From Icerya purchasi (lineage: Eukaryota; Arthropoda; Insecta; Hemiptera; Monophlebidae): 64,000 nt of DNA. The notes under the pieces were generated by a model that saw only the letters and a list, made by a program, of their open reading frames with translations, had not been told where the DNA came from and searched no databases. Position 1 is the stretch's first letter. Each line of letters begins with the position of its first letter. Shown piece by piece: positions 7,177 to 42,896 of this stretch. The DNA lies in the NCBI GenBank assembly GCA_039619475.1, contig CM077116.1:104887164-104951163 (forward strand). The letters run 5' to 3'. Both the position numbers and the translations under genes were made by a program.

Positions 7177-10100
7177 TTAAATGTAGATTCGGTCAGCTAT
7201 TGATAAGATAAAGGAACTGAGGATAGGAACAACTGAGATCGACGGAAACGATAAGATATACGAGGCACAATAAGGAGTAGGGAGTTTGAGTGACAGCAGA
7301 TTGGAATACAAAGAGGTACGTTCGTTCACGAGGGATGGACATTCAAAGAGGATATGGTCAGGATCACAGACGGCTACGTCGTCAGGATGAAGAGGGCAAT
7401 AAGGGGAAAGAGCGAGATGAAAACGAAAGCGTGAGGAAGGAAGAAGAGTATGATTCAGACGTAAACGGATAATAGGAACAATAACGGAGCGGTGAAGCGA
7501 AGGAAAATCGTAAAACCAAGGCCGCGTGGGAAGATTAGGTTGGATGGAAAAATAAAAGGAAGAATGATTAGAAAAGGAGGAAACGTAAAAATCTGACCAA
7601 AATCTAACATGAAACTTTTTGCACAATGGGAGTAAATTCGAAACGGGAATTTTAGAGAAAAAAAGCGGGAGGATACAGCAATCTGAGCCAAAGAATCAGC
7701 CATTTCGTTACCCTCTATCCCCATATGACTGGGGACCCAGAGCATTTCAATGCGGATAGCGTGAAGTGAGAAGAGAGTGTGAATGAGAGAGCGAATACGG
7801 AGGATGAAAAGGTCAGAGGAGTGAGAGGGGAAATGAGAGGAAATAGCTTTAAGAGCACACATGGAGTCGGAGATAATTAAAAATTTAGAAGAAGAACGAT
7901 GTGAGGAAATATGGATTATGGCGCGTAAAATGGCCGTTAACTCGGCCGTAAAGATAGTACAAAAGGAAGGGAGACGAAAAGATTCAGAGAAATTAATGCT
8001 CGGAATGATGAAAGAAGCTCCAACTCCATTAGGCCCCTTCGAACCATCCGTAAAAATAGCAATATGGGAAGGAAAACGGGATTTGATATAACTATGGAAT
8101 TCCTGTATAACTGTTGGATAGGAAAGGGATTTGGAGGAAAAAGGAAAGTAGAATACATTGGGAGGATTGGAGAGATCTGCAAAATTGAAAGAAAAGTAAG
8201 GGAGATTGTTATAAGAAATTGTGCAGGATAAAAAGGAATTTAGGCGCAAAGCAATGTGGGCTAGAATAGGAATTTTCTTGGGAGTAAAACGCCAGTTTTG
8301 CAGAATAGAAAGATATGAAGGAATAAGTTTGGAGGATGATAACGGTAGGCGTTTACACAAGAAACGATAACCTAAATAGGATCTGCGAATGAAAAGGGGA
8401 GGCGAGTTAGACTCAGCGAGAACTGCTGGTACTCGAGAAGATCTAAGAACACCAAGGCAAAGACGAATACAAGAATTTTGGATTATATCCAGCTTGGAAA
8501 GAAGTGATTTTGAGGCAGAGCCATAGATAAAGGAACAGTAGTCGAATTTGGAACGGATAATCGAATTGTACAAGGAAATAAGGAGAAAGGGATCGCCTCC
8601 CCATTTTGTTGGAGAAAGAGCTTTCAGTAAGTTTAGTCTTTTAAGGGCAGAAGAGGAAAGGAAATTAATATGTTCATAAAAGGAGAGACGACTATTGAGA
8701 AATACACCGAGATAGCAGAAGCATTCCCTACGAGGGATAAGATTGGAGTTTAAGGATACAGAGACTAAAGCGGGATTAAAAGGACGAAGAGAAAAGACAA
8801 TACAAGAGGATTTTAAAGGGGAAATAGAAAGGTTCAAAGAGGAAAGAGATTGTTCCAAAGTAGCTAGAGACGAATTAACACTTTCGTTAGCATCTACGAT
8901 ATCACGGGATGAGGAAAAGAGAAGAATGTCATCGGCAAAAAATAAGGAAGAGGAGTTTATAGAAAGAGAAGCAACAGAAATAGTATAAATATTAAAAAGA
9001 GTAGGACTAAGGCAGGATCCTTGTGGAAGACCACGTGAAACAACTCTTGTAACCTCGAACGAAGAAGAAGACAGGAGAATAGTACGATTTAACATCAAGT
9101 TAACAATGAGGGAACAAAAATGCGTCGGGATGTTAATTGCTATCATTCTATCTCGAAGAGTAGGGAGATGGACATTATCAAAAGCACTGGAAATATCGAT
9201 AAAAGTAGCTAGAGTGTACTGTTTATCGATGAAAGATTTATAGATATAGGAAACAAACAGACTGACGCAGTCAGCAGGACCTAAGCCTGGACGGAAACCA
9301 AACATATTAGAAGGAAAAACATTATTGTGTTCGAGCCACCAGACCAGGCGCTTGTTAAGCATGCCCTCAAACAGTTTTCTGAGACACGATGCTAGGGAGA
9401 TCGGACGAAGAGAGGAGTTTTTCTTAGGGATAGGAATGATAATAAAGGTGTTCCAGTCAGGAGGTGTGACTCCTCTGGACAAAAAGGAGTTGAATATACA
9501 AAGAAGGGTTCGGAGAGCAAGATCGGATAACTTTTTTAGGACAAAGAAGGGAATACCATCACGACCAGGAGTGGGGCTGGAAGATTTTTTGAGAATGGAT
9601 TTTAATTCATTAATATTAAACGCAGAGGAAAGAGAATGAGAATTAGGGTTTTCCATAACAGGAAACAGGCAGGATTCATCAACGTTAGGAACATAAGCAG
9701 GAGCAGAAGACAAACTGTCGGAGGAAATAGTATGGATAGAAGGACGTTCAGAAGAAGGGAATTTGAAAGCTCTGGCCATTTTCCAGATATGCTTGAGAGG
9801 AGTAGTTCTCGAAAAAGATGAACAGAAATTTTTCCAAGAGGATTTCTTAGACGATTTTAGAATAAACCTAGCCCTTGCATTGGCCCTTTTGTGGGCAAGA
9901 AAGTTTTCGCGTGTAGGATTTGATCGGAAAATTCTAAATGTAGCGCGACTATGATCGAAAGCGGCATTGCATTCTTCGTTCCACCAGAGGGACGATGCTG
10001 ATCCACGATGGCCTGACGATGACGGTTTACGGGAAGGAGAAGACAGCGATAGAGCATTTGTAATCGAATTTAGGAATAGATGGTAATGGAGTACAGGATC

Positions 10101-26087: not shown

Positions 26088-26893
26088 GGCTTGTCAACCA
26101 GGGACCTTTACCCAGAAACAATTGGAATAGAAAGGAATCACTTATATCCTGATACGATCAGATATTGTTAGGAGAAAGGAACAAATAATAGGAACAATTT
26201 GTGGAGAGGGAAGAGATAGAACATAAGAGGCGCAGTATGGAGTAGGAAGACCAAGTCCCAGCAAACTAAAGTAGAAAGCCGAGCACACAGCAGAAAGAGA
26301 TGAACACTCAAAGAACACATGGTCCGCATCGCAAACATGCTCTTCGTTCGAGTGGAGATGACAATATGGAGAGGAAACCAAGGAAAAACGAAAACGGGAG
26401 GAAGGCAACAGAGAATGGTTAACGCGCAAGCGAATAACGGAGACAACAACAGAACGACGAAGTGAAGGAAACAAAGAGAACCACGGATTGGCAGGAAGAC
26501 TAGGTTGGACAGACAGATAGAAAGAACGATTGTTAGAGAAAGAGGAAACGTACATATCCGACCAAAACCTAAGATGAAAATCTTTGCACAGAGGAAGGAG
26601 ATTGGACGAAGGGACTTTTTTAAAAAAGAAGTGAGAATAGGCAGCAAACCGAGCCAATGAGTCCCCCGCTTCATTACCGCAGATGCCCGAATGGCTAAGA
26701 ACCCACAGCAAATCGATTTGAATAGAATGAAGGGAAGAAAGAGCGTGGATAAGTGAGCGAATGCGGAGTATAATGAAATCACAGGAATAATCAGGAAGGA
26801 GAGAGCAAATGGCCTGAAGGGCGGTTATGGAGTCCGATATAATCAAGAATTTGGAGGAAATGTGATTAGAGGAAATGAAAATAATGGAACGTA
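26053..26893 (-). mobile_element. I-group retrotransposon copy 2, 3' half (left of the palindromic insertion)
   Basis: Minus strand. Poly(A) tail (T-run about 26059-26087) and the same GGG/TTGTCAACCAGGGACC 3' signature as the other copies. The outer TSD CTTCGTT lies at 26046-26052 and pairs with 42897-42903. The coding part (26142-26893) encodes the second half of RNase H (FLIISDSITALQAI, LLWVLSHSGICGNEAGDSLA) and the C-terminal CDADHVFFECSS zinc-like block, ending in SDRIRI*. The 5' part of the same copy is at 40933-42896. Confidence 0.9.
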
Positions 26894-26946
26894 AGTAGTC
26901 GATAAACCAGGCGACTGGCCGTTCCGCTAATCCGAACCCCAATTCA
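26894..26946 (+). repeat. Terminal inverted repeat, left
   Basis: 53 bp starting AGTAGTCGATAAACCAGGCG and ending in AATTCA. It matches the right end (40880-40932) in reverse complement with one mismatch seen (GCCGTTCCGC left, GCCGTACCGC right). After AATTCA the left end continues into 2.65 kb absent from the right side. The original inverted repeat was therefore probably much longer, covering the whole arm. Confidence 0.9.
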
Positions 26947-27180
26947 TGTCCAGGTGGCCAAAATTCACCCAAGTTTCCCCCGATTCCTCCGAGTTTCCCC
27001 CGGACGGTTCCCGTGCATATCCGCTGATCCGAACGTCCAAACAGTGTCCCGAGGTCAATAAACTGTCCAAAGTGTTATTCGGGGGCGCAAGTAACCCCAA
27101 TTAGTGTCCAGGTGCTGAAAGTTCCCCCAAGTTCCCCAAATTTCTCCGAAATTCCCCCGTACGCGTCCCGCTCGTTTCCG
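26937..27180. repeat. Subterminal GC-rich repeats of the palindromic element
   Basis: Two related ~80-bp blocks about 158 bp apart begin CCCCAATTxxTGTCCAGGTG (26937 and 27095). Both continue into a run of CCCCCAAGTT/TTTCCCCC motifs. A related CCGCTRATCCGAAC motif occurs at about 26925 and 27021. Subterminal repeats often serve as binding sites for replication or integration proteins; that role is inferred. Confidence 0.65.
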
Positions 27181-27420
27181 ATAAACTGAACCGATTATTA
27201 ATTAACATAAGTATATTAATTAATGTCCGAAAGTAACCCAAGTCTCCGCTGAACCCGCCAGTCCTGCTATGGTACTGCAATTTTTTTTCAAAATTCAGGG
27301 CCTAAGTATGAAAATTCCAAAATTTAACCCCAATATATTATTTAAAGCGTAAATCTAACCTATAACTCCAGTCCACACCTCTCACACGTATACTTCGTTC
27401 TCGCGCACGCTCCGGTCGCC

Positions 27421-27960
27421 GTCGCGAAAGCGCACGCGCCGATCCCACGCATATTCAGATTTCCGCCGCGATATCACACCCACACACACACGCGCTCCGT
27501 TCCCGATACCGCGATTGTTTTAATATATTTCAAAGTCTAAATTTTAATTTTCCCGATTCCCCGATTTTACTGCCATATGCCAAGACGCACGTCCCGATCC
27601 CGCGCATATATCCAATATAACGTTCTCCGCCGCAAAAGCGCACACGCCGATCCCACGCATATTCCGATGTCCACAGCGATATCCCGCGCACACACGCGCT
27701 CCGTTCCCGATACCGCGATTATTTCTTTAATATTTCAAAGCCTAAGTATACATAATATAAAATTAGCCGAAGTATATTTTTTATTTTCCTGATTTCCCGA
27801 TCTTACTGCCATATGCTAAAGCGCTCGTCCCGATCTCGCGCATATATCTAACACAGCGTTATTTTCCGCGAAAGCGCACGCGCCGATCCACCGCATATAT
27901 CCAATATAACGTTAGCTGCGTGGAAGCGCACGCGCTGTTCCCCCGCACGTGTCCTCCGTT
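27421..27960. repeat. CpG-rich tandem repeat, ~215-235 bp period, about 2.3 copies
   Basis: Units start with (C)GCRAAAGCGCACRCGCCGATCC at about 27424, 27636 and 27866. They contain CACACACGCGCTCCGTTCCCGATACCGCGATT and a TACTGCCATATGC block, and are rich in CGCG/CGCA against the AT-rich surroundings. Short open frames across it (for example 27577-27792) follow the repeat and are not credible genes. Confidence 0.75.
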
Positions 27961-28261
27961 TACGCTGCCACAATTTTTTTTAATTATTATTTTTTTCACA
28001 TAATAACCCAATCCCTTCTCTGTTGTCTAAACCTAACCGGTTATCTAAAACATTCACAAATTAACAAATCAAGTATTTCTATAGTTTAAAACTATCCTTA
28101 GTCTCCTTTACCCCTTCCACCCTCTTTTCCGATCGATTCCGTTGTTTTAATATCGAATATATCGCATTCTATTTACTTTTACTACGACCATTAAACCCCC
28201 GATCGATGCTCCCGACGCCTCCGTCATTTCATATTGAGAGGTAATTATTTTTTATGTGACC

Positions 28262-28660
28262 GCTATGAATGCACACCGTCCATTCCCGCACACCCATCTG
28301 CTGTCGTTAGTTCCCATACCGTTCATAATAACTTTTATTCAACTCCAAGTATTATGGAATTATTCCAATTATATATTTTCATCACTTCCGATCATTTCTT
28401 CTGACCGTTCATAATATTTTTATTTTCCTGCGGTTCTAAAAATAAATCCTACAATGTCTTCAACGCGATGAATGCGCACACATCTCCTACAGTTAGTTTC
28501 CATATCGATCTTAATAACTTTTTTCAACTCCAAGTATTATGGAATTATTCTAACTATATTTTTTTTTTCGCTTCCGATCGTTTCTCCCGAACGTTTATAA
28601 TTTTTTTCCAGACATATGTATTCAAAAATGAAATCAAGTATAATATTATTTAACGCGGTT
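28262..28660. repeat. Second tandem repeat in the left-only region, ~200-bp period
   Basis: Two units (about 28265-28465 and 28466-28660) share GAATGCRCAC, the CATCTxCTxxxGTTAGTT block and CAACTCCAAGTATTATGGAATTATT. A third diverged relative begins at about 29870 (GCGCACCATCCATTCGCACAC), inside the arm. The rest of 27961-29597 is AT-rich and without genes. Confidence 0.65.
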
Positions 28661-30013
28661 TCATAATTTCCCTCTCCATCGCCTATTCATCCTACACAAA
28701 TTACAATTCTTTCATAATAAATGTTCTAGACCCAGGCAAACAATCAACTCTCGCAGAAGTGTAGACGTTGCCTCCAACACCCATTTTACTATCAATTATT
28801 GTATATTATTGTTAGATTATTTTTCCAAAAAGTCTTTTGAAATTTTTGTCCGTTCGTACATATTTTTTTTATTTTATTTGCACGACATCCATTTCCATGC
28901 ATACACGTTTCCCTAGCAATTATAATATGTTTTATTTATTTTTCAACTCCACCCAGACTTACATACACGTCCTATTAGGTTCCTTATTAATCGTGAACAT
29001 TTTTTTTTCTATATTAGCCACAGGAGCATATCACATCAGACCCACGCACAGTCATTATATTTAATTTTTAATTATCGATCTTTAATTATTTTTACTGGTA
29101 TTATTTTTCCGACACATTCACCCCGTCATACATACTTTACATCTTTTAACATTTTGATAGAGAAAATCTCAGAGCACTAAATAATTTTTATCAACATCGT
29201 AACTAATTTTAATATTATACACATCTCAGTATAATTATTAAACGAAGGAACTATTATTTTCATTGACGATATTGTTGCTACAAACATTAATCGTCCTTTT
29301 CCAGGTATAGTCAACCTGTTCATGTATTCGTCTCGTCTTTCTATCAACCTTTGACCGATCAATACTCCCCTGCTATTTACCGTTATTCGCTAGAAGAATA
29401 TTTTTTTAGACTCGTTCAAATACACACATGCACATAAAAAAATCGACATCAACATCATCGAACACTGATCTCGACATTTCCAAGAAATTCAATCGCTGCT
29501 CCGCAGTCTAAGATGTCTCCGCACGCCTCACCAGTCGTTTGTAACATTATTGAAGCGCCTGTCATGTACCGTTATTTACGACCTTCTACAACATACAAAT
29601 TCACGACATGTATACACCTTTTCTAGAAAGCATGGTGAAAATGGACAATCTCTCCCGATGAAAACTAGCTTGAATGATGTACCGTTATTTCATTTATTTT
29701 GCAGAAGGTTAATTTAAGGCGTCCATGCACCTTTTCTACTATTAAATAAGCAAATGTATCCTTTAAACCTTTCTACCTTTTTGCAATCAATTTACTGACT
29801 GTACATACTTTTTATATTTTTTCCACATACTCCTTGATCGTCACAACCACCACAAAAGCGCACCATCCATTCGCACACACTCATCTGATACCGTTAGATC
29901 TCATATCATTCATAATCATTTTTTCGATTCTATTAGTTTAAGAATATTTCATTTTTTTTTGTTGTTTTTTTTCCAACTCTAACATTTTTTTTCTTTCGAA
30001 ATCTTTCGTATTA

Positions 30014-30475
30014 TATTTTTTCTCCCATATAGCTGTCACGTAGTCGTAGTGTAAATGTACGTCGCTCATAACCTTACATGCATGTTACCATACCGATGTA
30101 TTAGATCGTGCGACAATGTTATTGAGTCTGCTGAAACAGGATCTTCCTCTTCATATCTCTTGTAGAAAACGGTTTACATGTACACACCTACACACAAACA
30201 CACATATCTTCATCTCCCTTTGACGACGTCTTTCAAACACCTCTATAACCAAAGGAATGTGGTTTTTCTGGTACAACCCTCCCTTTTCAAAGGCAAGCAT
30301 CGAGGTAGATTGTTGAACGGATCTGATCGTGCAGACAGTATTAGTTTTATGTTAAACGTGTGCATTTTGTAGAATCTGTGTTCTTCACGCATTATTAAAA
30401 ATTTACTGTAACAGTAAAAGTAATAATTTTATACGGTTCTTTTTTAGTAAAAAGTTAAAAAAATAGTAATCAAAC
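30014..30475 (+). promoter_or_regulatory. Upstream module 1 (shared by both genes of the arm)
   Basis: About 460 bp directly before the 334-aa gene, closely similar to 32172-32742 before the 282-aa gene. Shared blocks in order: TTTTTTCTCC.ATAT; CGTAGTGTAAATG; CCTTACATGCATGTT; GTATTAGATCGTGCGACAATGTTA; GAAACAGGATCTTCCTCTTCATATCT; GTAGAAAACGGTTTACATGTACACACC; CAACCCTCCCTTTTCAAAGGCA; GAACGGATCTGATCGTGCAG; TTCTTCACGC.TTATTAAAA; and TAATCAAA directly before the ATG. The strict order and position before both starts imply a common promoter/5' UTR. Mirror copy: 40008-40469. Confidence 0.75.
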
Positions 30476-31480
30476 ATGAATAACAATACCGATTCGATTG
30501 ATATTAAAGCCGACGAATTTATTCAGAATTCATTTTCGAATGATACTGACTCGCTTTCGTCTTTTTCACCTCAAACACCGCAATATGATGAAGGTTATAC
30601 ATCAGAAGAATCAACACCCCTTGTACGTAAAATCGTTGGTCCAGTATTATTATCAGAACAAGTGGATATAGCGGAATATTTTGTAGATATCAGCGTCCAT
30701 ATAGATTGTGATTATGGGTTTCGAGTAACTGAACTAGCAATGATTGATATATCTGGAGGGAAGTGTTTGCATACGCTGTATAAGCCAAGCAGAGCATGGC
30801 ATGCATCAAAAATGCCACATTTACAATGTTCTTCAGTGAGTTATTACTTGAAGAACCCTTCATTATTTCCCTGTCGTGAAGAAATATTCATCGCGCGCGA
30901 TATATTCACGATATTGTCCCAAAAACCGAGGGCTCGCGTATATGTTTTAACAGTATATGCTAAACTTACACTAATGGAACTTAACGAAAAGTCTGAATTG
31001 TTGCGTGATTTAGACTACGAAATCGTTAATATGGATCAAGTCTTTCGATTATCTAGTATTGAGAATCTACATGAAGAGTATTTTAGTATAAGCAATTTGA
31101 TAACTTGTAAACACCATAATGAGAATGATAGTTTTCATTGTGCGGTGAAAAACGTTATGGTGATGAAGGCATGGTACGATCATGTCATCCGTCCGCTGAA
31201 GCTTATGAATAATCTCAATATAAATGATTTAAGTCAGTTGTTCATTACAACCACCAAAGAAATGATAATTACGTTATTTCCAAGTTGTGTTGGAGACATT
31301 TATACATTTTTACCAGATAGACTAAAACAGGATGATACGATAAAATCACTTCTACCATGTTTTGAACATGAGAATGATGAAGAATATTATTTCGATGACG
31401 ATATATTTCTGCATAGTACTCGAAATTGTATGAAAGTAAAAGATTGTATCGACTGCCAACGTACAATTCGTCTAGATTAA
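30476..31480 (+). CDS. 334-aa protein of the palindromic element, unrecognised (weak DEDDh-exonuclease resemblance)
   Basis: Intact frame starting MNNNTDSIDIKADEFIQNSF, the same opening as the neighbouring 282-aa protein. It follows the shared upstream module and AAACATG. Residues 1-60 are acidic, Ser/Thr-rich and probably disordered. A compact region runs from about 65 to 240: EYFVDISVHID (68-77), TELAMIDISGGK (85-96), LHTLYKPSRAWH (98-109), RVYVLTVYAKL (154-164), a CKHH...FHCAVKNVMVMKAW block (211-233), and a C-terminal DCIDC pair (323-327). The layout (a D-x-x strand, an ELAxID strand, then a late Cys/His-xx-A-xx-V helix) recalls DEDDh 3'-5' exonucleases, but the second acidic residue of motif I is S73 and the expected late D is N226. 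If related, it has lost catalysis. No signal peptide or membrane segment. An identical copy is at 39003-40007 (minus). Function unknown. Confidence 0.8.
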   Translation: MNNNTDSIDIKADEFIQNSFSNDTDSLSSFSPQTPQYDEGYTSEESTPLVRKIVGPVLLSEQVDIAEYFVDISVHIDCDYGFRVTELAMIDISGGKCLHTLYKPSRAWHASKMPHLQCSSVSYYLKNPSLFPCREEIFIARDIFTILSQKPRARVYVLTVYAKLTLMELNEKSELLRDLDYEIVNMDQVFRLSSIENLHEEYFSISNLITCKHHNENDSFHCAVKNVMVMKAWYDHVIRPLKLMNNLNINDLSQLFITTTKEMIITLFPSCVGDIYTFLPDRLKQDDTIKSLLPCFEHENDEEYYFDDDIFLHSTRNCMKVKDCIDCQRTIRLD

Positions 31481-32171
31481 AAATTCATTAATTCGATCGT
31501 TTTTAACAATTTTGTATATTTTTTCTGTATATTTTTGTGTGTATTTGTACATATGTATATATTTTTTTTCAGACCGTTCGTTTTTATGTTTTCTTTAAAA
31601 TTTTTTAAATATATTTTTATACACATGTAAATACTGTTTTGTATATATTTTGTATATATTTTGTATATATTTTTTCCCTCAATATCTATTCATTCTCATA
31701 TTGTATATATTTTTGCTAATTATTTTTTCATCTTTTTCCGATCCTTTCCGATTTCTGTTTATTTAATTTATTTAGCGATCTATCCTTCTCTCCCCCTCTT
31801 AACTTAAAGTACTGGTAATGACGAAATTTTCAAAAATCTGAACCAGTCGAGTATAATGTATATATAATTATTTAATTTTCGAATATATTTCCACATAATT
31901 TGTCCATATCTGTTTAGATTAAAAAATTAGATTTTTGTCTGTAATACAACATTTTTTATTTTTTTTGTGTGTAATAAGCGAATTCAACTTTTATACTTTT
32001 TCACGTACATCACGTATTTCCACAGCTGCGAGAGTTTTCATCTGTTTGTAAGATACAACCTCTGACTCTAAATGTTCTCTAAATATTTTTTTTTTTAAGC
32101 CTAAATATTATAGAAATAGCCGAAGTATATTTTTTTCGTTTCTGACCATTTCTTCCGACCATTCATAATTT

Positions 32172-32742
32172 TGTATTTTTTCTCCAATATGTATGCTCAC
32201 TATCGTAGTGTAAATGTGCGTCGCTTATAACCTTACATGCATGTTGCCATACCGTTGTATTAGATCGTGCGACAATGTTACAGAGTCTGCTGAAACAGGA
32301 TCTTCCTCTTCATATCTTTTGTAGAAAACGGTTTACATGTACACACCAACACACACCAACACACACATACACACACATATAACCCAAAGAACACCTGCAA
32401 ACTTCGTTCAGACACACCTGCAACCATCTTTCACCAAAGGAATGTGGTTTTTCCTGGTGCAACCCTCCCTTTTCAAAGGCATGCTTCGAGCTCGAATGTC
32501 GAACGGATCTGATCGTGCAGGCAGTATTAGTGTTATGTTAAACGTGTGGAATTTGTTGAAGCTGTGTTCTTCACGCGTTATTAAAATATTCTCAAGAATG
32601 ATAAAGTCTGTAATTTCCTACGTCTTTTCTCTTTTTCGTTCACTCTTTATTTTCTGTCTTTTTTCTCTCTTATTGCACGTTATTCTTTTCGCTCTTATTT
32701 TCTCTCATTTTTTTAGTATAAATATTACAATAATAATCAAAT
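32172..32742 (+). promoter_or_regulatory. Upstream module 2 with TATA-like box
   Basis: Second copy of the module at 30014-30475, with a CA-rich expansion (about 32339-32400) and an extra pyrimidine-rich segment (about 32590-32716) before the start. TATAAATA at 32717-32724 lies about 20 bp before the ATG of the 282-aa gene. A 137-codon frame (32337-32750) runs through it and overlaps the gene start by 8 bases. The first module keeps only 64 codons of this frame, so I treat it as regulatory sequence rather than a gene. Mirror copy: 37741-38311. Confidence 0.72.
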
Positions 32743-33591
32743 ATGAATAACAATACCGAATCGAATGTCGATAATGTCGTGGATTTCATTCAAAATTTTT
32801 TCGTAAATGATAATGATAATGCAATGTTTCCGGACGATTTTCCAAATATACATATGCCGCCACCACCACCACCAGCAGAAGAAACATCATTACAAGGGCC
32901 TTCGCTACATTCATTCTCAGATTTCATTACATTGGCTACATCAATACCTTTAGCATCACCGGTAATGTCACAAGATTTGCAAACTCCGCCGTTAACGCAA
33001 GTACCTTTGGTACATGATGAAAAAGAATATAGCACAACAATGTTGGAATTACCCAAAGAAATATTTAACCGAAAAGCAGTCGTCTATGTTAAAGACCCTA
33101 ACGATCCAGAAAATAAAAATAGTTTCATGTATGCGGTTTTAGCAAAATTTACATCAAAACCGTCATCGATGTGGCAGTACAATATTCTACAGAAAGTATA
33201 CGATTTCAGCTTTATACACTTACCGATCCAATCGCTGGCTGATATTGAAACGTTTGAAAGAATAAACGCTGTATCAATCAACTTATACAAGCTGATAGAA
33301 ACCGACTATACAGATCAAAGTACATTCAACTACAAAATAAAAGTCGTGTACGCCTTCCGAAAAAATCACAGTTTGTTAAATCATAAACATCACACAAACA
33401 TATTATATTGGGGATCTAATGGAAATTATCAATTCGCATGGATAAAAAAATTCAGTCGATTGTTGCGGATCCAGTCGCCGAAAGCGAAATTTGTATGCTG
33501 GTCATGTCTCGATCCCATGAATACCGATTACGAACATAATAATACTCACAGATGTGACGCAGTCAGTTGGCGTAATATGCACTATATGTAA
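32743..33591 (+). CDS. 282-aa protein matching the N-terminal (pre-polymerase) region of Polinton-type DNA polymerase B
   Basis: Starts MNNNTESNVDNVVDFIQNFF. Residues 21-110 are low complexity with a proline run (PPPPPP, 39-44). Residues 115-272 match the conserved block before the exonuclease domain of protein-primed PolB in Polinton/Maverick elements: NSFMYAVLAKF (126-136), ADIETFERINAVSINLYKL (166-184), HTNILYWGSNGNYQFAWIKKF then SRLLRIQ (217-244), and a zinc-binding pattern C252-x2-C255...H265-x3-H269-x-C271. In those polymerases this motif is followed by Exo I. Here the frame stops 11 residues later, with AATAAA (33595-33600) right after the stop, so it is a stand-alone N-terminal domain and not a polymerase. 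It may bind DNA or template ends, or interfere with the parent polymerase; both are inference. Identical mirror copy: 36892-37740. Confidence 0.85.
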   Translation: MNNNTESNVDNVVDFIQNFFVNDNDNAMFPDDFPNIHMPPPPPPAEETSLQGPSLHSFSDFITLATSIPLASPVMSQDLQTPPLTQVPLVHDEKEYSTTMLELPKEIFNRKAVVYVKDPNDPENKNSFMYAVLAKFTSKPSSMWQYNILQKVYDFSFIHLPIQSLADIETFERINAVSINLYKLIETDYTDQSTFNYKIKVVYAFRKNHSLLNHKHHTNILYWGSNGNYQFAWIKKFSRLLRIQSPKAKFVCWSCLDPMNTDYEHNNTHRCDAVSWRNMHYM

Positions 33592-33939
33592 TTAAATAAA
33601 GACGTATTTTTCGTATTCATAGATGTATTTTTATTTTTCAAAAAATCTTTTTACATTGTTTCATACAAATTAATGTAATCTATATAATATAATAAATATT
33701 TTCATATGTATATATTTTTGTTTTTATTTTCCATAAACTTAAAATTCCAATTTTACTATTGTTGTTAATATATTCCAAACTCCAGTTTGTATTAAATCCT
33801 CTCGCTCTTTATGTTGAACAGACGAATCAATATTATTTAACTGTTCAGTTAAGTATGCAGAGTCTTTTTATCTTGCTTAACTTTAAAGATATATGATAGA
33901 TTCTTTTTTCATTTGACAGTGTAAACGTTTTCTTCTTTT

Positions 33940-34370
33940 ACAATTTTCTTATGCTTTATCACTATTACAACATTTTTCATCATTTTCTAACTAATTGTAA
34001 ACATTTTTCCACTATTTCGTAACATGTTCTTATGTTTTAGGACTTTTTGCCCTATTTTTTTCACCAATTTATACTATTCCGAAGCATTTCATATGATTGA
34101 ACGCTACTTAAGAAGTTTTTCGATAATTATCACCATTCCTCGCAATATTCATATGTTTTAACGCTTTTTACACTATTTTTCACAAATTTATGATATTTCG
34201 CTTCATTTCTAATGTTTGAACGACTCATATGCAGTTTTTCGACAATTTTTCACCGTTCATCACTATATTTTTTTATGTTGTATCACCTTTTATGAAGTCT
34301 TCATCAAATTTTACCATCATTCAACAATATTTTCGTTATTGTACCCCTTTGAACTGTTGTTTTACCCTAA
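33940..34370. repeat. Degenerate ~55-60-bp tandem repeats in the arm
   Basis: Repeated blocks of the form CATATGTTTGAACGCTTTTTACACTATTTTTCACAAATTT, with CAT/TATG, GAACG, TTTTTC and TCACCATTC anchors recurring about every 55-60 bp. AT-rich, with no gene. Mirror copy at 36113-36543. It lies between the 282-aa gene and the central spacer. Confidence 0.6.
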
Positions 34371-34898
34371 AAGCGAGTGTATATCTAATTTGTTATAATT
34401 AAGAAAGAATGTAATGTATATTACAAATTTCCTTTCCTGGGAGTATGATTGTGTGTGCAGAATAATAAACTCTGGTAAGAAGCAGACTGTATCCAACATC
34501 AAGCAGGGTGTGTAAAGCGTGGTAATTAACTCTGGCATTGCACACATTGCAAGGTAGTTATGATATGTTTGAGCATAAATTAGTTGTTGTATATCATTCA
34601 TGTTAGTCATTAAATGTTCACACTGAGAGATGCAAGGGGGGCGTCATCATATGAACCATTACGATTTTTATAATTATAATATACACTAAGCATGTATGTA
34701 TTACAACGACCACATCAACTCTGTTAAGGACGGTAATGTTTGGAGGTAGATAGTGAACCGTTACATTAGAAGAGGAACATGGGTACATACATGGAAACAT
34801 CATTAGCGATATTACATCACATGTATGTCATCAAATTTAACTAAAATATTGCGTCCATAGTAAAAAATGCGAGGATTTTTCCTAAGAGGTTAAATTTT

Positions 34899-35584
34899 GT
34901 GTGTAAAGACTGTTGAAATAATTAAAATTACTTTACATTATGAACCTTGTACCATGAAAATTATCAAAAAACATTATAAGAGTCGTTCAAAATATAAAAA
35001 AAAATGGTGATTACAAATTAGTGAAAAATAATGTAATGATTGCATGGATCTTGATGATGACGAGTCCATCGCGTCTCTCAGTGTGATCGTTTAATGTAAA
35101 ATCCTGAACGAGATACAACAACTAATTTTGACTTAACATATTATAATTGACTTGCAATGTGTTTAAATGATAGAGTTAATTATCAAACAGTACTCTCCTT
35201 GCTTGATGTGGTACATTCCACCTCTTACCCGTATTTATTATTCCCATCCAAACACCATCAACTCACTAACACACAACAACTATTATGCTATAATCGATGC
35301 ATCAGAAAAGTTTGGAAACTTCCCACAACCAGACACAAACCCTTTCAAAGCGCTTCACAATGAATGGAATATCACATCAAGAAGTATATAGGCCAGTCTA
35401 AAAAGTGCCATTCACACGGACAAAAAATAGCCACATTTAGAAAAAACATAAAATTTTATATGAAAAAAGACCGTTTATCTCCCCAAATAATCTCACTTTA
35501 AGTGTAAAACAACGATTTTAGTGTAAAATACCCCATCTTCAGCTAAAATCGCATCAATTTTATTATATTCGCCGTCTTAGACAT
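34899..35584. other. Central spacer of the palindrome (686 bp)
   Basis: Not inverted-repeated with the flanks. About 35055-35260 is a diverged copy of right-arm sequence 35838-36035 in the same orientation: both contain TCTCAGTGTGA, ATTTAATG/GTTTAATG, ACTAATTT, CTTGCAATGTGT, AGAGTTAATTA, and TTGATGT followed by CCC/TATTATT motifs. No credible coding sequence. The start has an AT-rich block with TTGTGTGTAAAGACTG; the end has AAAATACCCCATCTTC. Confidence 0.75.
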
Positions 35585-36891
35585 AAAATTTAACCTCTTA
35601 GGAAAAATCCTCGCATTTTTTACTATGGACGCAATATTTTAGTTAAATTTGATGACATACATGTGATGTAATATCGCTAATGATGTTTCCATGTATGTAC
35701 CCATGTTCCTCTTCTAATGTAACGGTTCACTATCTACCTCCAAACATTACCGTCCTTAACAGAGTTGATGTGGTCGTTGTAATACATACATGCTTAGTGC
35801 ATATTATAATTATAAAAATCGTAATGGTTCATATGATGACGCCCCCCTTGCATCTCTCAGTGTGAACATTTAATGACTAACATGAATGATATACAATAAC
35901 TAATTTATGCTCAAACATATCATAACTACCTTGCAATGTGTGCAATGCCAGAGTTAATTACCACGCTTTACACACCCTGCTTGATGTTGGATACAGTCTG
36001 CTTCTTACCAGAGTTTATTATTCTGCACACACAATCATACTCCCAGGAAAGGAAATTTGTAATATACATTACATTCTTTCTTAATTATAACAAATTAGAT
36101 ATACACTCGCTTTTAGGGTAAAACAACAGTTCAAAGGGGTACAATAACGAAAATATTGTTGAATGATGGTAAAATTTGATGAAGACTTCATAAAAGGTGA
36201 TACAACATAAAAAAATATAGTGATGAACGGTGAAAAATTGTCGAAAAACTGCATATGAGTCGTTCAAACATTAGAAATGAAGCGAAATATCATAAATTTG
36301 TGAAAAATAGTGTAAAAAGCGTTAAAACATATGAATATTGCGAGGAATGGTGATAATTATCGAAAAACTTCTTAAGTAGCGTTCAATCATATGAAATGCT
36401 TCGGAATAGTATAAATTGGTGAAAAAAATAGGGCAAAAAGTCCTAAAACATAAGAACATGTTACGAAATAGTGGAAAAATGTTTACAATTAGTTAGAAAA
36501 TGATGAAAAATGTTGTAATAGTGATAAAGCATAAGAAAATTGTAAAAGAAGAAAACGTTTACACTGTCAAATGAAAAAAGAATCTATCATATATCTTTAA
36601 AGTTAAGCAAGATAAAAAGACTCTGCATACTTAACTGAACAGTTAAATAATATTGATTCGTCTGTTCAACATAAAGAGCGAGAGGATTTAATACAAACTG
36701 GAGTTTGGAATATATTAACAACAATAGTAAAATTGGAATTTTAAGTTTATGGAAAATAAAAACAAAAATATATACATATGAAAATATTTATTATATTATA
36801 TAGATTACATTAATTTGTATGAAACAATGTAAAAAGATTTTTTGAAAAATAAAAATACATCTATGAATACGAAAAATACGTCTTTATTTAA

Positions 36892-37740
36892 TTACATATA
36901 GTGCATATTACGCCAACTGACTGCGTCACATCTGTGAGTATTATTATGTTCGTAATCGGTATTCATGGGATCGAGACATGACCAGCATACAAATTTCGCT
37001 TTCGGCGACTGGATCCGCAACAATCGACTGAATTTTTTTATCCATGCGAATTGATAATTTCCATTAGATCCCCAATATAATATGTTTGTGTGATGTTTAT
37101 GATTTAACAAACTGTGATTTTTTCGGAAGGCGTACACGACTTTTATTTTGTAGTTGAATGTACTTTGATCTGTATAGTCGGTTTCTATCAGCTTGTATAA
37201 GTTGATTGATACAGCGTTTATTCTTTCAAACGTTTCAATATCAGCCAGCGATTGGATCGGTAAGTGTATAAAGCTGAAATCGTATACTTTCTGTAGAATA
37301 TTGTACTGCCACATCGATGACGGTTTTGATGTAAATTTTGCTAAAACCGCATACATGAAACTATTTTTATTTTCTGGATCGTTAGGGTCTTTAACATAGA
37401 CGACTGCTTTTCGGTTAAATATTTCTTTGGGTAATTCCAACATTGTTGTGCTATATTCTTTTTCATCATGTACCAAAGGTACTTGCGTTAACGGCGGAGT
37501 TTGCAAATCTTGTGACATTACCGGTGATGCTAAAGGTATTGATGTAGCCAATGTAATGAAATCTGAGAATGAATGTAGCGAAGGCCCTTGTAATGATGTT
37601 TCTTCTGCTGGTGGTGGTGGTGGCGGCATATGTATATTTGGAAAATCGTCCGGAAACATTGCATTATCATTATCATTTACGAAAAAATTTTGAATGAAAT
37701 CCACGACATTATCGACATTCGATTCGGTATTGTTATTCAT
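36892..37740 (-). CDS. 282-aa PolB N-terminal-region protein, mirror copy
   Basis: Same 282 residues as 32743-33591 with no difference, including the FSRLL block and the C252/C255/H265/H269/C271 zinc pattern. It is preceded on the minus strand by the mirror of upstream module 2 (37741-38311) with its TATA-like box. Keeping both copies free of any change implies a very recent duplication or ongoing gene conversion between the arms. Confidence 0.85.
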   Translation of the reverse strand: MNNNTESNVDNVVDFIQNFFVNDNDNAMFPDDFPNIHMPPPPPPAEETSLQGPSLHSFSDFITLATSIPLASPVMSQDLQTPPLTQVPLVHDEKEYSTTMLELPKEIFNRKAVVYVKDPNDPENKNSFMYAVLAKFTSKPSSMWQYNILQKVYDFSFIHLPIQSLADIETFERINAVSINLYKLIETDYTDQSTFNYKIKVVYAFRKNHSLLNHKHHTNILYWGSNGNYQFAWIKKFSRLLRIQSPKAKFVCWSCLDPMNTDYEHNNTHRCDAVSWRNMHYM

Positions 37741-39002
37741 ATTTGATTATTATTGTAATATTTATACTAAAAAAATGAGAGAAAATAAGAGCGAAAAGAA
37801 TAACGTGCAATAAGAGAGAAAAAAGACAGAAAATAAAGAGTGAACGAAAAAGAGAAAAGACGTAGGAAATTACAGACTTTATCATTCTTGAGAATATTTT
37901 AATAACGCGTGAAGAACACAGCTTCAACAAATTCCACACGTTTAACATAACACTAATACTGCCTGCACGATCAGATCCGTTCGACATTCGAGCTCGAAGC
38001 ATGCCTTTGAAAAGGGAGGGTTGCACCAGGAAAAACCACATTCCTTTGGTGAAAGATGGTTGCAGGTGTGTCTGAACGAAGTTTGCAGGTGTTCTTTGGG
38101 TTATATGTGTGTGTATGTGTGTGTTGGTGTGTGTTGGTGTGTACATGTAAACCGTTTTCTACAAAAGATATGAAGAGGAAGATCCTGTTTCAGCAGACTC
38201 TGTAACATTGTCGCACGATCTAATACAACGGTATGGCAACATGCATGTAAGGTTATAAGCGACGCACATTTACACTACGATAGTGAGCATACATATTGGA
38301 GAAAAAATACAAAATTATGAATGGTCGGAAGAAATGGTCAGAAACGAAAAAAATATACTTCGGCTATTTCTATAATATTTAGGCTTAAAAAAAAAAATAT
38401 TTAGAGAACATTTAGAGTCAGAGGTTGTATCTTACAAACAGATGAAAACTCTCGCAGCTGTGGAAATACGTGATGTACGTGAAAAAGTATAAAAGTTGAA
38501 TTCGCTTATTACACACAAAAAAAATAAAAAATGTTGTATTACAGACAAAAATCTAATTTTTTAATCTAAACAGATATGGACAAATTATGTGGAAATATAT
38601 TCGAAAATTAAATAATTATATATACATTATACTCGACTGGTTCAGATTTTTGAAAATTTCGTCATTACCAGTACTTTAAGTTAAGAGGGGGAGAGAAGGA
38701 TAGATCGCTAAATAAATTAAATAAACAGAAATCGGAAAGGATCGGAAAAAGATGAAAAAATAATTAGCAAAAATATATACAATATGAGAATGAATAGATA
38801 TTGAGGGAAAAAATATATACAAAATATATACAAAATATATACAAAACAGTATTTACATGTGTATAAAAATATATTTAAAAAATTTTAAAGAAAACATAAA
38901 AACGAACGGTCTGAAAAAAAATATATACATATGTACAAATACACACAAAAATATACAGAAAAAATATACAAAATTGTTAAAAACGATCGAATTAATGAAT
39001 TT

Positions 39003-40007
39003 TTAATCTAGACGAATTGTACGTTGGCAGTCGATACAATCTTTTACTTTCATACAATTTCGAGTACTATGCAGAAATATATCGTCATCGAAATAATATT
39101 CTTCATCATTCTCATGTTCAAAACATGGTAGAAGTGATTTTATCGTATCATCCTGTTTTAGTCTATCTGGTAAAAATGTATAAATGTCTCCAACACAACT
39201 TGGAAATAACGTAATTATCATTTCTTTGGTGGTTGTAATGAACAACTGACTTAAATCATTTATATTGAGATTATTCATAAGCTTCAGCGGACGGATGACA
39301 TGATCGTACCATGCCTTCATCACCATAACGTTTTTCACCGCACAATGAAAACTATCATTCTCATTATGGTGTTTACAAGTTATCAAATTGCTTATACTAA
39401 AATACTCTTCATGTAGATTCTCAATACTAGATAATCGAAAGACTTGATCCATATTAACGATTTCGTAGTCTAAATCACGCAACAATTCAGACTTTTCGTT
39501 AAGTTCCATTAGTGTAAGTTTAGCATATACTGTTAAAACATATACGCGAGCCCTCGGTTTTTGGGACAATATCGTGAATATATCGCGCGCGATGAATATT
39601 TCTTCACGACAGGGAAATAATGAAGGGTTCTTCAAGTAATAACTCACTGAAGAACATTGTAAATGTGGCATTTTTGATGCATGCCATGCTCTGCTTGGCT
39701 TATACAGCGTATGCAAACACTTCCCTCCAGATATATCAATCATTGCTAGTTCAGTTACTCGAAACCCATAATCACAATCTATATGGACGCTGATATCTAC
39801 AAAATATTCCGCTATATCCACTTGTTCTGATAATAATACTGGACCAACGATTTTACGTACAAGGGGTGTTGATTCTTCTGATGTATAACCTTCATCATAT
39901 TGCGGTGTTTGAGGTGAAAAAGACGAAAGCGAGTCAGTATCATTCGAAAATGAATTCTGAATAAATTCGTCGGCTTTAATATCAATCGAATCGGTATTGT
40001 TATTCAT
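39003..40007 (-). CDS. 334-aa protein, mirror copy
   Basis: Identical to the product of 30476-31480: same MNNNTDSID start, same ELAMID and FHCAVKNV blocks and same CIDCQRTIRLD end. It is read on the minus strand behind the mirror of module 1 (40008-40469). The two gene copies of the element therefore point toward each other and converge on the central spacer. Function unknown. Confidence 0.8.
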   Translation of the reverse strand: MNNNTDSIDIKADEFIQNSFSNDTDSLSSFSPQTPQYDEGYTSEESTPLVRKIVGPVLLSEQVDIAEYFVDISVHIDCDYGFRVTELAMIDISGGKCLHTLYKPSRAWHASKMPHLQCSSVSYYLKNPSLFPCREEIFIARDIFTILSQKPRARVYVLTVYAKLTLMELNEKSELLRDLDYEIVNMDQVFRLSSIENLHEEYFSISNLITCKHHNENDSFHCAVKNVMVMKAWYDHVIRPLKLMNNLNINDLSQLFITTTKEMIITLFPSCVGDIYTFLPDRLKQDDTIKSLLPCFEHENDEEYYFDDDIFLHSTRNCMKVKDCIDCQRTIRLD

Positions 40008-40879
40008 GTTTGATTACTATTTTTTTAACTTTTTACTAAAAAAGAACCGTATAAAATTATTACTTTTACTGTTACAGTAAATTTTTAATAATGCGTGAAG
40101 AACACAGATTCTACAAAATGCACACGTTTAACATAAAACTAATACTGTCTGCACGATCAGATCCGTTCAACAATCTACCTCGATGCTTGCCTTTGAAAAG
40201 GGAGGGTTGTACCAGAAAAACCACATTCCTTTGGTTATAGAGGTGTTTGAAAGACGTCGTCAAAGGGAGATGAAGATATGTGTGTTTGTGTGTAGGTGTG
40301 TACATGTAAACCGTTTTCTACAAGAGATATGAAGAGGAAGATCCTGTTTCAGCAGACTCAATAACATTGTCGCACGATCTAATACATCGGTATGGTAACA
40401 TGCATGTAAGGTTATGAGCGACGTACATTTACACTACGACTACGTGACAGCTATATGGGAGAAAAAATATAATACGAAAGATTTCGAAAGAAAAAAAATG
40501 TTAGAGTTGGAAAAAAAACAACAAAAAAAAATGAAATATTCTTAAACTAATAGAATCGAAAAAATGATTATGAATGATATGAGATCTAACGGTATCAGAT
40601 GAGTGTGTGCGAATGGATGGTGCGCTTTTGTGGTGGTTGTGACGATCAAGGAGTATGTGGAAAAAATATAAAAAGTATGTACAGTCAGTAAATTGATTGC
40701 AAAAAGGTAGAAAGGTTTAAAGGATACATTTGCTTATTTAATAGTAGAAAAGGTGCATGGACGCCTTAAATTAACCTTCTGCAAAATAAATGAAATAACG
40801 GTACATCATTCAAGCTAGTTTTCATCGGGAGAGATTGTCCATTTTCACCATGCTTTCTAGAAAAGGTGTATACATGTCG

Positions 40880-40932
40880 TGAATTGGGGTTCGGATTAGC
40901 GGTACGGCCAGTCGCCTGGTTTATCGACTACT
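40880..40932 (-). repeat. Terminal inverted repeat, right, fused to the arm at a deletion junction
   Basis: Inverted copy of 26894-26946. Its inner edge, TGAATT (40880-40885), is also the outer edge of the long right arm. The left side has the matching AATTCA twice (26941-26946 and 29598-29603), so the right side lacks 2,657 bp between two 6-bp microhomologies. Confidence 0.88.
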
Positions 40933-42896
40933 AACGTAGGATAGCCATCAATTCGGCTGTGAATATGGAGCAGAAAGAAGGTAAGCAGAAAGATTCTGAA
41001 AAGCCAAAATCTGGGAGGATAAACGAAGCACCGACACCATCCGGCTTCTTCGAGCCATCTGTAAACACAGTTACATGCAAGGGAAAATCAGAATTGATAT
41101 AACTGCGGAATTCCTGTCTGATTAGGGCCTGCGGAAGAAACTTAGAGGCGTAGGAACAGTAAACATATTTTGAGGATGGCAGAGATCGGCGAAATTAAAA
41201 GTGAAATAAGGGAGATTGACAAAGGACATTATGTAAGGACAAAACGAACTGAGCCGTAGAGAAATGAGAGAAAGAATTGGAATTTTTCTAGGTACGAAAC
41301 GCCAGTTCCTAGAAATGGAAAGATAGGAATGGATAAGAGTAGAGGATGTGAGTGGGAGGCGCTTAGTAAGAAAACGATAGCTTAAATAAGATCTTCGGAT
41401 AGAAAAGGGTAGTGTGTTAGATTCGGCAAGGACTGCTGGAACTGGAGAGGATTTAAGAGCACCAAGACAGAGACGAAGGCAAGAGTTTTGGATTACATCC
41501 AATTTAGAGAGTCGGGACTTAGAGGCACAACCATAGAGAAATGAACAGTAATCAAATTTTGAGCGGATGATAGATTTATATAGAAAAATAAGGACATAAG
41601 GATCACCACCCCATTTGGTTGGAGATAAGGCTTTCAGCAGGTTTAGTCTTTTGATTGCTGAAGAGGAAAGATACTTGATGTGTTCGGAGAAGGATAACCG
41701 ACTGTCAAGGAAAATACCAAGATAACAGAAACAATTAACACGAGAAAGGAGTGTATTTTCTAGGGATAGATAGACAGAAGCAGGATTATAAGGTCGCAGA
41801 GTAAATACGGCATAACAAGATTTAGTAGGAGAAATAGAAAGGTTAATTGAGGAAAGAGAGTGATCCAACACGGAGAGAGACGAATTAAGTGCCTCACTGG
41901 CTGATATAATATCGTGAGATGAGGCATAAAGTAGGATGTCATCAGCAAAGAATAAAGACGACGAATTTAGAGGAAGAGAAGCCACACTGATAGTGTACAT
42001 GTTGAAAAGAGTAGAACTGAGGGAGGAACCTTGAGGGAGACCTCGAAAAAAGATTCTTGAAGATTCAAAGGAAGGAGCAGAGAGGTGGATAGAACGATTC
42101 TGCATGAGATTGATAATAAGAGAAGTAAAGTGCAATGGAACGTTAATTGCTATCATCTTATCTTTTAGAGTGGGAAGATGGACATTATCAAAAGCACAGG
42201 ATATATCGATGAAGGAAGCCAGAGTATAGTTTTTTAGGATAAAGGATTGGTAGATATGGGAGACAAAAAGACTAATGCAGTCGGAAGGACCAATACCAGG
42301 CCGAAAGCCGAACATATTGCTAGGAAATACATTATTATGCTCTAGCCACCAAACAAGGCGCTTGTTTAACATACCTTCAAACAATTTTCTGATACAGGAG
42401 GCTAAAGAAATAGGGCGTAACGAAGAACTTTTTTTAGGAATAGGAATGGTGATAAAAGAATTCCAAGAGGGGGGAGTTATACCTCTGGAGAGGAAACAAT
42501 TAAAAAGATGTAGGAGAAACGCAAGAGACAGTTCAGACCGGTTTTTAAGGACCGAAAAAGGTATACCGTCAAGACCTGTAGTGGGGCTAGAAGATTTGGA
42601 AAGGACAGATTTTAATTCATAAATATTGAAGGCAGAAGTTAGGAAATGTGTCTGGGAATTATGCGGAGGTGGAGTTGGATACAGTTCATCAACGTTATGA
42701 ACATAGGCAGGAGCAACGGAATCAATAAAATATTCTAAGCTAACTTTAGAAAGGTTGAGATTTGAAGGACGTTCAGAGGATGGGGATTTGAAAGCTCTAG
42801 TCATTTTCCAGATATGAGAAAGAGGGGTATTCCTAGAGAATGAAGAACAGAAATTCTTCCAGGAGGACCTTTTTGAAACTTTAAGTATATACCTAG
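40933..42896 (-). mobile_element. I-group retrotransposon copy 2, 5' half (right of the palindromic insertion)
   Basis: Continues 26053-26893 on the minus strand. The first ORF part (41122-42804) encodes MTRAFKSPSSERP..., then RT motifs FIDISCAFDNVHLPTL, RGLPQGSSLSSTLF and FFADDILLYASS, and the post-RT LRLCLGALKSSPVPAVLAESN block. The following part (41120-40933) encodes the start of RNase H (VTVFTDGSKKPDGVGASF, FTAELMAILR) one frame over, so a frameshift lies at about 41140-41150. The 5' truncation is in the EN-RT linker at 42896, flanked by the TSD CTTCGTT (42897-42903). This copy was already defective, apart from the palindromic insertion. Confidence 0.9.

Follow-up and report, generated by a model that had tools for sequence, protein, structure and literature searches.

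A palindromic element lies at positions 26894-40932 of a 64,000-nucleotide (nt) stretch of the Icerya purchasi genome (contig CM077116.1, positions 104,887,164 to 104,951,163), which we refer to as the window. The element measures 14,039 base pairs (bp), runs from AGTAGT to ACTACT, and had been described from its letters alone as a relative of Polintons (Mavericks). Direct reading bears out the 6-bp target-site duplication (TSD) AACGTA, the AG...CT ends and the terminal inverted repeats of the original prediction; the repeats span 53 bp and are 98% identical between sides. Mirror arms around a spacer are likewise real, but the sizes given for them, 5,295 and 686 bp, are corrected here to 5,309 and 670 nt. 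The features of the element are as follows (window positions; aa, amino acids; PolB, the Polinton polymerase):

26888..26893, no strand: left TSD, AACGTA, letters read directly
26894..26946, plus strand: left terminal inverted repeat (AGTAGTCGATAAACC...), from self-alignment; first 60 bases used as genome query
26947..29597, plus strand: outer part of the left arm, single copy, from comparison with sister copies
29598..34906, plus strand: left palindrome arm, from self-alignment
30011..30403, plus strand: block preceding the 334-aa gene and 84% like the one at 32171-32590, which precedes the 282-aa gene
30476..31480, plus strand: 334-aa gene, homologue of the gene adjoining the capsid gene in ordinary Polintons of Icerya purchasi
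31638..31873, plus strand: block 93% like the stretch directly after PolB in the PolB palindrome L053
32743..33591, plus strand: 282-aa gene, matching the N-terminal region of Polinton PolB
34907..35576, no strand: central spacer, from comparison with sister-copy centres
35577..40885, minus strand: right palindrome arm, from self-alignment, 4 mismatches against the left arm
36892..37740, minus strand: mirror copy of the 282-aa gene, identical open reading frame (ORF)
39003..40007, minus strand: mirror copy of the 334-aa gene, identical ORF
40880..40932, minus strand: right terminal inverted repeat, meeting the arm at the 6-bp microhomology AATTCA
40933..40938, no strand: right TSD, AACGTA, letters read directly

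The inverted repeat (5.3 kilobases (kb), 99.9%; 5,309 nt in each arm, 4 mismatches, 670 nt between) is far beyond chance. It does not start at the left terminal repeat, since 2.65 kb (26947-29597) occur on the left side only. Sister copies (L011/L012, L017-L019) have this segment on both sides; here the right-hand one is missing, and the join left by the deletion in the right arm carries 6 bp of microhomology, AATTCA. The 670-bp spacer forms the inner end of both arms in several sisters and is therefore interpreted as what a deletion at the centre left unpaired, one spacer copy having probably been lost. Judged against its sisters, the window copy belongs to an abundant lineage of palindromes and has undergone two deletions. 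This replaces the earlier view of a lone derivative of one Polinton end, as other palindromes with the same ends carry PolB or capsid and integrase genes.

A 6-bp TSD is the general rule for Polintons. The element has both this duplication and AG-type terminal inverted repeats, and an ordinary Polinton of Icerya purchasi (see below) also has a 6-bp TSD and AGTAGT ends, which supports the proposed kinship. Polintons are defined in passages of PMC4028283 and PMC6431247, the latter giving a length of 15-25 kb; the window copy measures 14.0 kb after its deletions, and most pairs of its terminal repeat (see below) span 17.5-19.5 kb. No PolB, rve integrase, ATPase, cysteine protease or capsid gene was found in the ORF list or by a Pfam scan of three of its proteins, in which no family exceeded its cut-off; this agrees with the claim of two intact genes in mirror duplicate and neither polymerase nor integrase. 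With PolB, integrase and capsid looked for and absent, the element is not filed here as a Polinton; it is Polinton-derived and non-autonomous.

As had been predicted, the 282-aa protein resembles PolB in the N-terminal part, ahead of the PolB domain: at 32% over 168 aa (E 9e-13) against a PolB of the same terminus family and at 26% over 170 aa against another. As single-sequence queries, neither it nor the 334-aa protein found a match among 5.8 billion sequences, and PHROGs and PDB sequence searches gave no significant match; a 6-row alignment of the 334-aa family retrieved one match, a 158-aa protein (E 1.4e-7). The ratio of nonsynonymous to synonymous substitution rates (dN/dS), based on few changes, was 0.19-0.83 for the 334-aa gene (ten pairs of five copies) and 0.57-0.98 for the 282-aa gene (three pairs of three copies, omitting L013, with a shortened frame, and L017, with a broken one). 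The block shared upstream of both genes may be a duplicated promoter region. Residues D71, D79, E86 and C211, H214, C222 are invariant between the 334-aa protein and its homologues in L015 and L033. Their pattern is reminiscent of the piRNA-pathway protein Maelstrom, which combines a DnaQ-like fold with a C-H-C site; no Pfam family matched, and the predicted structure of the 334-aa protein (mean predicted local distance difference test score, pLDDT, 31) was unusable.

Copies of the element were sought in the genome with the first 60 bases of the terminal repeat. The best 40 of 436 candidates form 14 facing pairs, with 12 of the 40 unpaired among the matches listed; all gene counts in the genome are lower bounds. 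Twelve of the 14 pairs are 17.5-19.5 kb long, one is 23.8 kb, and the window copy measures 14.0 kb. As the original prediction anticipated, the palindrome recurs in other copies that share these ends: 12 of the 14 pairs are palindromic where read, including one (L013/L014) suspected of being an assembly fault. The window copy and six others, read nearly whole, are all palindromes (7/7), and five centres of the other seven pairs (L037-L040, L042) are palindromic. Similarly, among the best 40 of 1,845 candidates for the 334-aa gene, 24 make up 12 facing pairs. The longest arm block within each of six copies is 99.7-99.97% alike, compared with about 95-97% for the longest blocks between copies and less for shorter ones. 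The arms of L015/L016 show zero differences over their first 8,909 nt. In L009/L010 the outer 2.4 kb have diverged on one side, and in L017-L019 (C2:115040631-115064427, 23.8 kb) the outer part is 97.6% alike, the right part contains an additional terminal repeat, and the 282-aa frame is broken. Both flanks were read for 10 palindromes, and 7 of these are enclosed by clean 6-bp TSDs (AACGTA, GTAATG, GTAATC, TACGTT, GGCGAG, ATCGTC and GTCGTC).

Palindromes with the window's ends also carry the halves of a Polinton; one with the capsid/integrase half and two with the polymerase half were read. The former, L015/L016 (C2:107086834-107104864, TSD GTAATC), holds its half in mirror duplicate: both arms encode an rve integrase (with an additional weak chromo match), an A32-like ATPase, PLA2, a C5 protease and a double-jelly-roll capsid protein, each above its Pfam cut-off, and the centre holds a homologue of the 334-aa protein (26% identity). 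A 236-aa protein adjoining the capsid gene, with no Pfam match, is taken from its position only for a minor capsid protein. The two polymerase palindromes, L050 with L045 and L054 (C2:167988700-168007845, TSD ATCGTC) and L053 with L046, L055 and L056 (C1:284133397-284152815, TSD GTCGTC), have long open PolB genes that appear as facing pairs in a PF03175 search. The terminal 0.9 kb of both are 91-93% like that of the capsid palindrome L015. A further kind with these ends, L020/L021 (C2:275580652-275598990), carries in its arms a 50% homologue of one capsid-half gene; a single 322-aa gene and a long microsatellite near the centre were also seen there. The right end predicted for a palindrome at L049 was not found (at L062). 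A scan of IMG/VR with the ordinary-Polinton capsid protein and a search of a phage collection with the L015 integrase retrieved none.

The PolB genes of L053 and L050 compare at a dN/dS of 0.17 (82 synonymous and 58 nonsynonymous changes). A single snap-back event for L045 and L046 was considered and dropped, their turning points lying ~500 nt apart, and this value is consequently no proof of selection since the palindromes formed. The capsid-half genes of L015 gave 0.09-0.17 against the ordinary element, at high synonymous divergence, which mostly reflects earlier history.

The search of the genome with PF03175 gave 133 matches at 89 sites (best 91 of 638 candidates). Twelve of the 89 sites form six facing pairs, all six palindromic where read, L022/L024 by its arms and L043-L047 at the centre. 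L043 and L044 (C1:427203115-427222515) are PolB palindromes about 12.7 kb apart whose centres are identical over 1,892 nt. In L022, two F-box proteins (7512-7994 and 8444-8914, PF00646 above cut-off) adjoin PolB. The ORFs adjoining the window element on its two sides (window 26142-26674 and 41122-42804, minus strand) look by their motifs like two parts of one non-long-terminal-repeat retrotransposon, so that the element may sit inside such a retrotransposon; the L022 palindrome is likewise embedded in retrotransposon-like sequence.

Ordinary Polintons coexist with these palindromes. One was traced end to end (C2:121154541-121175291, 20,751 bp, TSD CCATCA) and has AGTAGT ends with a 392-nt terminal repeat at 97.7%. 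Its capsid half (L033) is collinear with L015 at 74-83% nucleotide identity across the integrase, ATPase, PLA2, protease, capsid and 334-homologue genes (assigned by alignment to L015, not by Pfam), and its capsid is a single unbroken 412-aa frame. The other half has a PolB site and an end like that of L022. A second ordinary group has a cousin terminal repeat at 5/5 starts and non-palindromic centres in 3/3 cases, the PolB side continuing into the capsid half.

These elements reveal the join in one palindrome, L022/L024, which belongs to a different terminus family from the window (19,809 bp, the whole flanked by TSD GGCGAG). Centres were predicted near six single PolB sites of the L022 kind. 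Four of them (L027, L028, L030, L031) follow the palindrome arm to its centre and then continue unmirrored; the other two (L029, L032) match nothing and are uninformative. Along the ordinary strand, ...AAAAAGATTT is separated by about 50 nt from ...AAATC. After the 3' AAATC, the palindrome continues with the complement of the sequence that precedes GATTT; relative to the four ordinary centres, GATTT pairs with AAATC (5 bases) and leaves a 53-nt loop. In its letters, this join is the pattern expected from a strand snapping back on itself. The ordinary elements are 95.5-98% like L022/L024 and are thus sisters of its parent, not the parent. A similar join, with a loop near 120 nt, appears when L015/L016 is compared with the second ordinary group.

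The turning points cluster in part. Relative to the stop codon of the 334-homologue, the turn lies at about 0 in L022 (the loop covers C2:121165599-121165657, the stop being at 121165605), -35 in L043, -160 in L046 and -140 in L015, the last three read on the cousin L065 and good to some 10-20 nt; the turn of L044 is identical to that of L043, and that of L015 is approached from the capsid side. Four of six distinct centres hence fall in a stretch of about 170 bp where one mid-element gene has its 3' end, and the turn stands at 53% of the ordinary element length. No more than about 25 bp separate the point where the capsid palindrome L015 departs from the ordinary sequence and the point where the PolB palindrome L046 meets it, so that these two halves together would cover a whole genome. 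Candidate reasons for the clustering are that forks from both ends meet there, that only halves near that size give a particle-fitting palindrome, and that each half must retain whole genes.

We propose, with a probability of roughly three in four, that the window element is a twice-deleted copy of a ~18-kb palindromic family that shares its ends with capsid-integrase-half and polymerase-half palindromes, that likely arose by mid-genome snap-back and that would be moved by enzymes of other copies. The proposal builds on what was observed (a family with shared ends, complementary gene sets distributed over separate palindromes, 6-bp TSDs around whole palindromes and one join in a sister family), and from these we infer a snap-back origin for the window lineage itself. 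Protein-primed synthesis would begin at one end; with its 3' end at mid-genome, the new strand would pair with a few complementary bases just upstream and copy back to the starting end, turning half a genome into a full-length molecule with two functional ends. The Polinton integrase would insert this molecule. Copies of the window kind, which encode no PolB, integrase or capsid, would be copied and inserted in trans, and arms could stay alike since each replication round can refold a strand into a hairpin.

Several observations weigh against this proposal. The snap-back origin had been part of the original prediction, and its fate is mixed: a base-resolved join exists in a palindrome of another terminus family, but the original join of the window lineage was not found, although its arms and ends fit snap-back. 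A longer whole copy with the window's ends, also foreseen, did not appear, as none of the 40 listed terminal repeats (0/40) lies within 25 kb of the 89 listed PolB sites; both lists are incomplete, two same-end PolB palindromes being absent from the 40. All four arm mismatches in the window fall within the innermost 321 nt (chance 1.3e-5 under an even spread), next to the loop, where pure snap-back leaves none. The centres of L045 and L047 are not placeable on ordinary sequence, which limits the clustering to 4/6, and the arms of L045 are interrupted by an insert. The centres of L036 and L041 are filled with microsatellite, leaving 2/14 pairs uncounted as palindromes, and 16 of the 40 listed matches to the 334-aa gene have no facing partner among the matches listed. 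L011/L012 has no clean 6-bp TSD, its flanks sharing at least 14 bp and its left end being without the canonical first base, and the TSD of L020/L021 is an ambiguous ATATAT. In L013/L014 (C2:341043850-341062600) the mirror extends 54 bp into both flanks and is followed by 100 N; its right half may therefore be a contig-end folding fault, and this copy was set aside. The double-jelly-roll matches of L015 fall in two separate frames, the capsid frame being interrupted. Finally, constraint on the accessory genes of the window is weak or recent.

Breakage offers another route to such molecules, one that we consider possible but rather unlikely. A linear Polinton would break mid-genome, its ends would fold through short inverted homology, and hairpin copying would yield two complementary palindromes with no polymerase strand switch in normal synthesis. 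The L015 exit and L046 entry, so close together, are as expected for the two products of one break, and a passage of PMC10622511 proposes foldback priming at breaks for inverted duplications. However, the PolB centres of L043 and L022 are 100-170 bp off and in other lineages, and must then be separate events; those of L045 and L047 are elsewhere or unplaceable, and forks meeting there from both ends, or selection for length, could produce the clustering without any break. Growth on the chromosome, in which ordinary elements gained long arms after insertion by gene conversion, nested insertion or inverted duplication, as might hold for Foldback or Galileo, appears improbable. Conversion keeps palindrome arms alike, and L017-L019 with its extra inner terminal repeat illustrates later rearrangement. 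The TSDs nevertheless enclose the whole palindrome, one centre region is common to many dispersed copies, and L022/L024 has a snap-back join with a loop instead of a duplication of both halves.

That hifiasm or scaffolding folded contigs back at repeats is very hard to credit for the family as a whole. L013/L014 fits this explanation, and an 18-kb palindrome is near the usual HiFi read length. Yet a matching 6-bp TSD joins the flanks of the 7/10 palindromes mentioned above, arms differ by few bases where copies differ mutually by several percent, and the window copy is only 14 kb, in an assembly made by hifiasm from PacBio HiFi reads, according to a passage of PMC11183206. Equally far-fetched is an ordinary non-autonomous DNA transposon of another superfamily with acquired Polinton fragments. 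The window copy, taken alone without a Polinton enzyme, could suggest it, but its ends and at least 0.65 kb of adjoining sequence are common to palindromes with rve integrase, capsid and PolB, and its 6-bp TSD is the same as in the ordinary Polinton of this species.

Since palindromes with the same ends carry complementary gene sets, a viral genome was likely divided into two doubled halves, each of which would depend on the other for movement. The palindromes may live as parasites on whole Polintons, or they may be the segments of a multipartite element. More tentatively, and against the odds as we see them, the whole Polinton genome of this terminus family would have been replaced by self-complementary segments (capsid plus integrase, polymerase, and accessory segments, the window element among them), with snap-back doubling each one to a particle-fitting length. 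If true, complementary defective genomes would have turned a linear double-stranded DNA genome multipartite, and a single insect genome would preserve the steps as fossils. Passages of PMC10159356 and PMC10223652 set out models in which multipartite viruses stem from defective genomes that complement each other; such models could be tested on DNA fossils here. This one assembly brings together ordinary elements, older palindrome families and a palindrome whose join is readable; they point to a likely route from half of a linear protein-primed genome to a full-length, two-ended molecule, and show that an animal genome harbours many integrated copies of such doubled molecules. A palindrome length near 18 kb may also give a handle on the capacity of the Polinton particle, the extracellular form of which was yet to be detected as of 2021 according to a passage of PMC7805220.

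Among known systems, the likeness to Polintons (polintoviruses, adintoviruses) lies in the 6-bp TSD and AGTAGT ends of the window element and in the rve integrase (weak chromo), A32-like ATPase, C5 protease, double-jelly-roll capsid, PLA2 and PF03175 PolB of the same-end palindromes. The differences are that these genes are split among separate palindromes of about whole-element length and that the window kind is without any defining enzyme. Searches of open-licence PMC papers for palindromic, foldback or segmented Polintons gave no on-point title among those listed; PMC12721341, considered as a precedent, was rejected, its relevant passage concerning gene order.

Very long inverted arms, as in the window element, are found in Galileo and other Foldback-type transposons, which have no Polinton genes and are not known to show half-genome doubling. 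Galileo is placed by its transposase in the P-element superfamily (passage of PMC3573991). A search on snap-back or symmetric adenovirus recombinants found no on-point paper among the titles listed. Symmetric adenovirus recombinants, like snap-back (foldback) defective viral genomes, carry one end of a linear genome twice, head to head on either side of a small loop, and so have two functional ends. The same one-end doubling is seen in L022/L024 against its sisters and in L015/L016 against its cousin, but the products here are integrated, mostly with TSDs, in many copies that jointly carry both complementary halves; the window kind, like a defective genome, would presumably replicate only with the help of a complete one. 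Bidnaviridae have two segments and a PolB of Polinton origin. They are single-stranded DNA viruses and are not known to be palindromic half-genomes. Their protein-primed PolB and separately packaged segments are described in a passage of PMC4061559. With multipartite viruses in general, the palindromes share complementary gene sets on separate segments with the same ends (L015/L016 versus L050 and L053).

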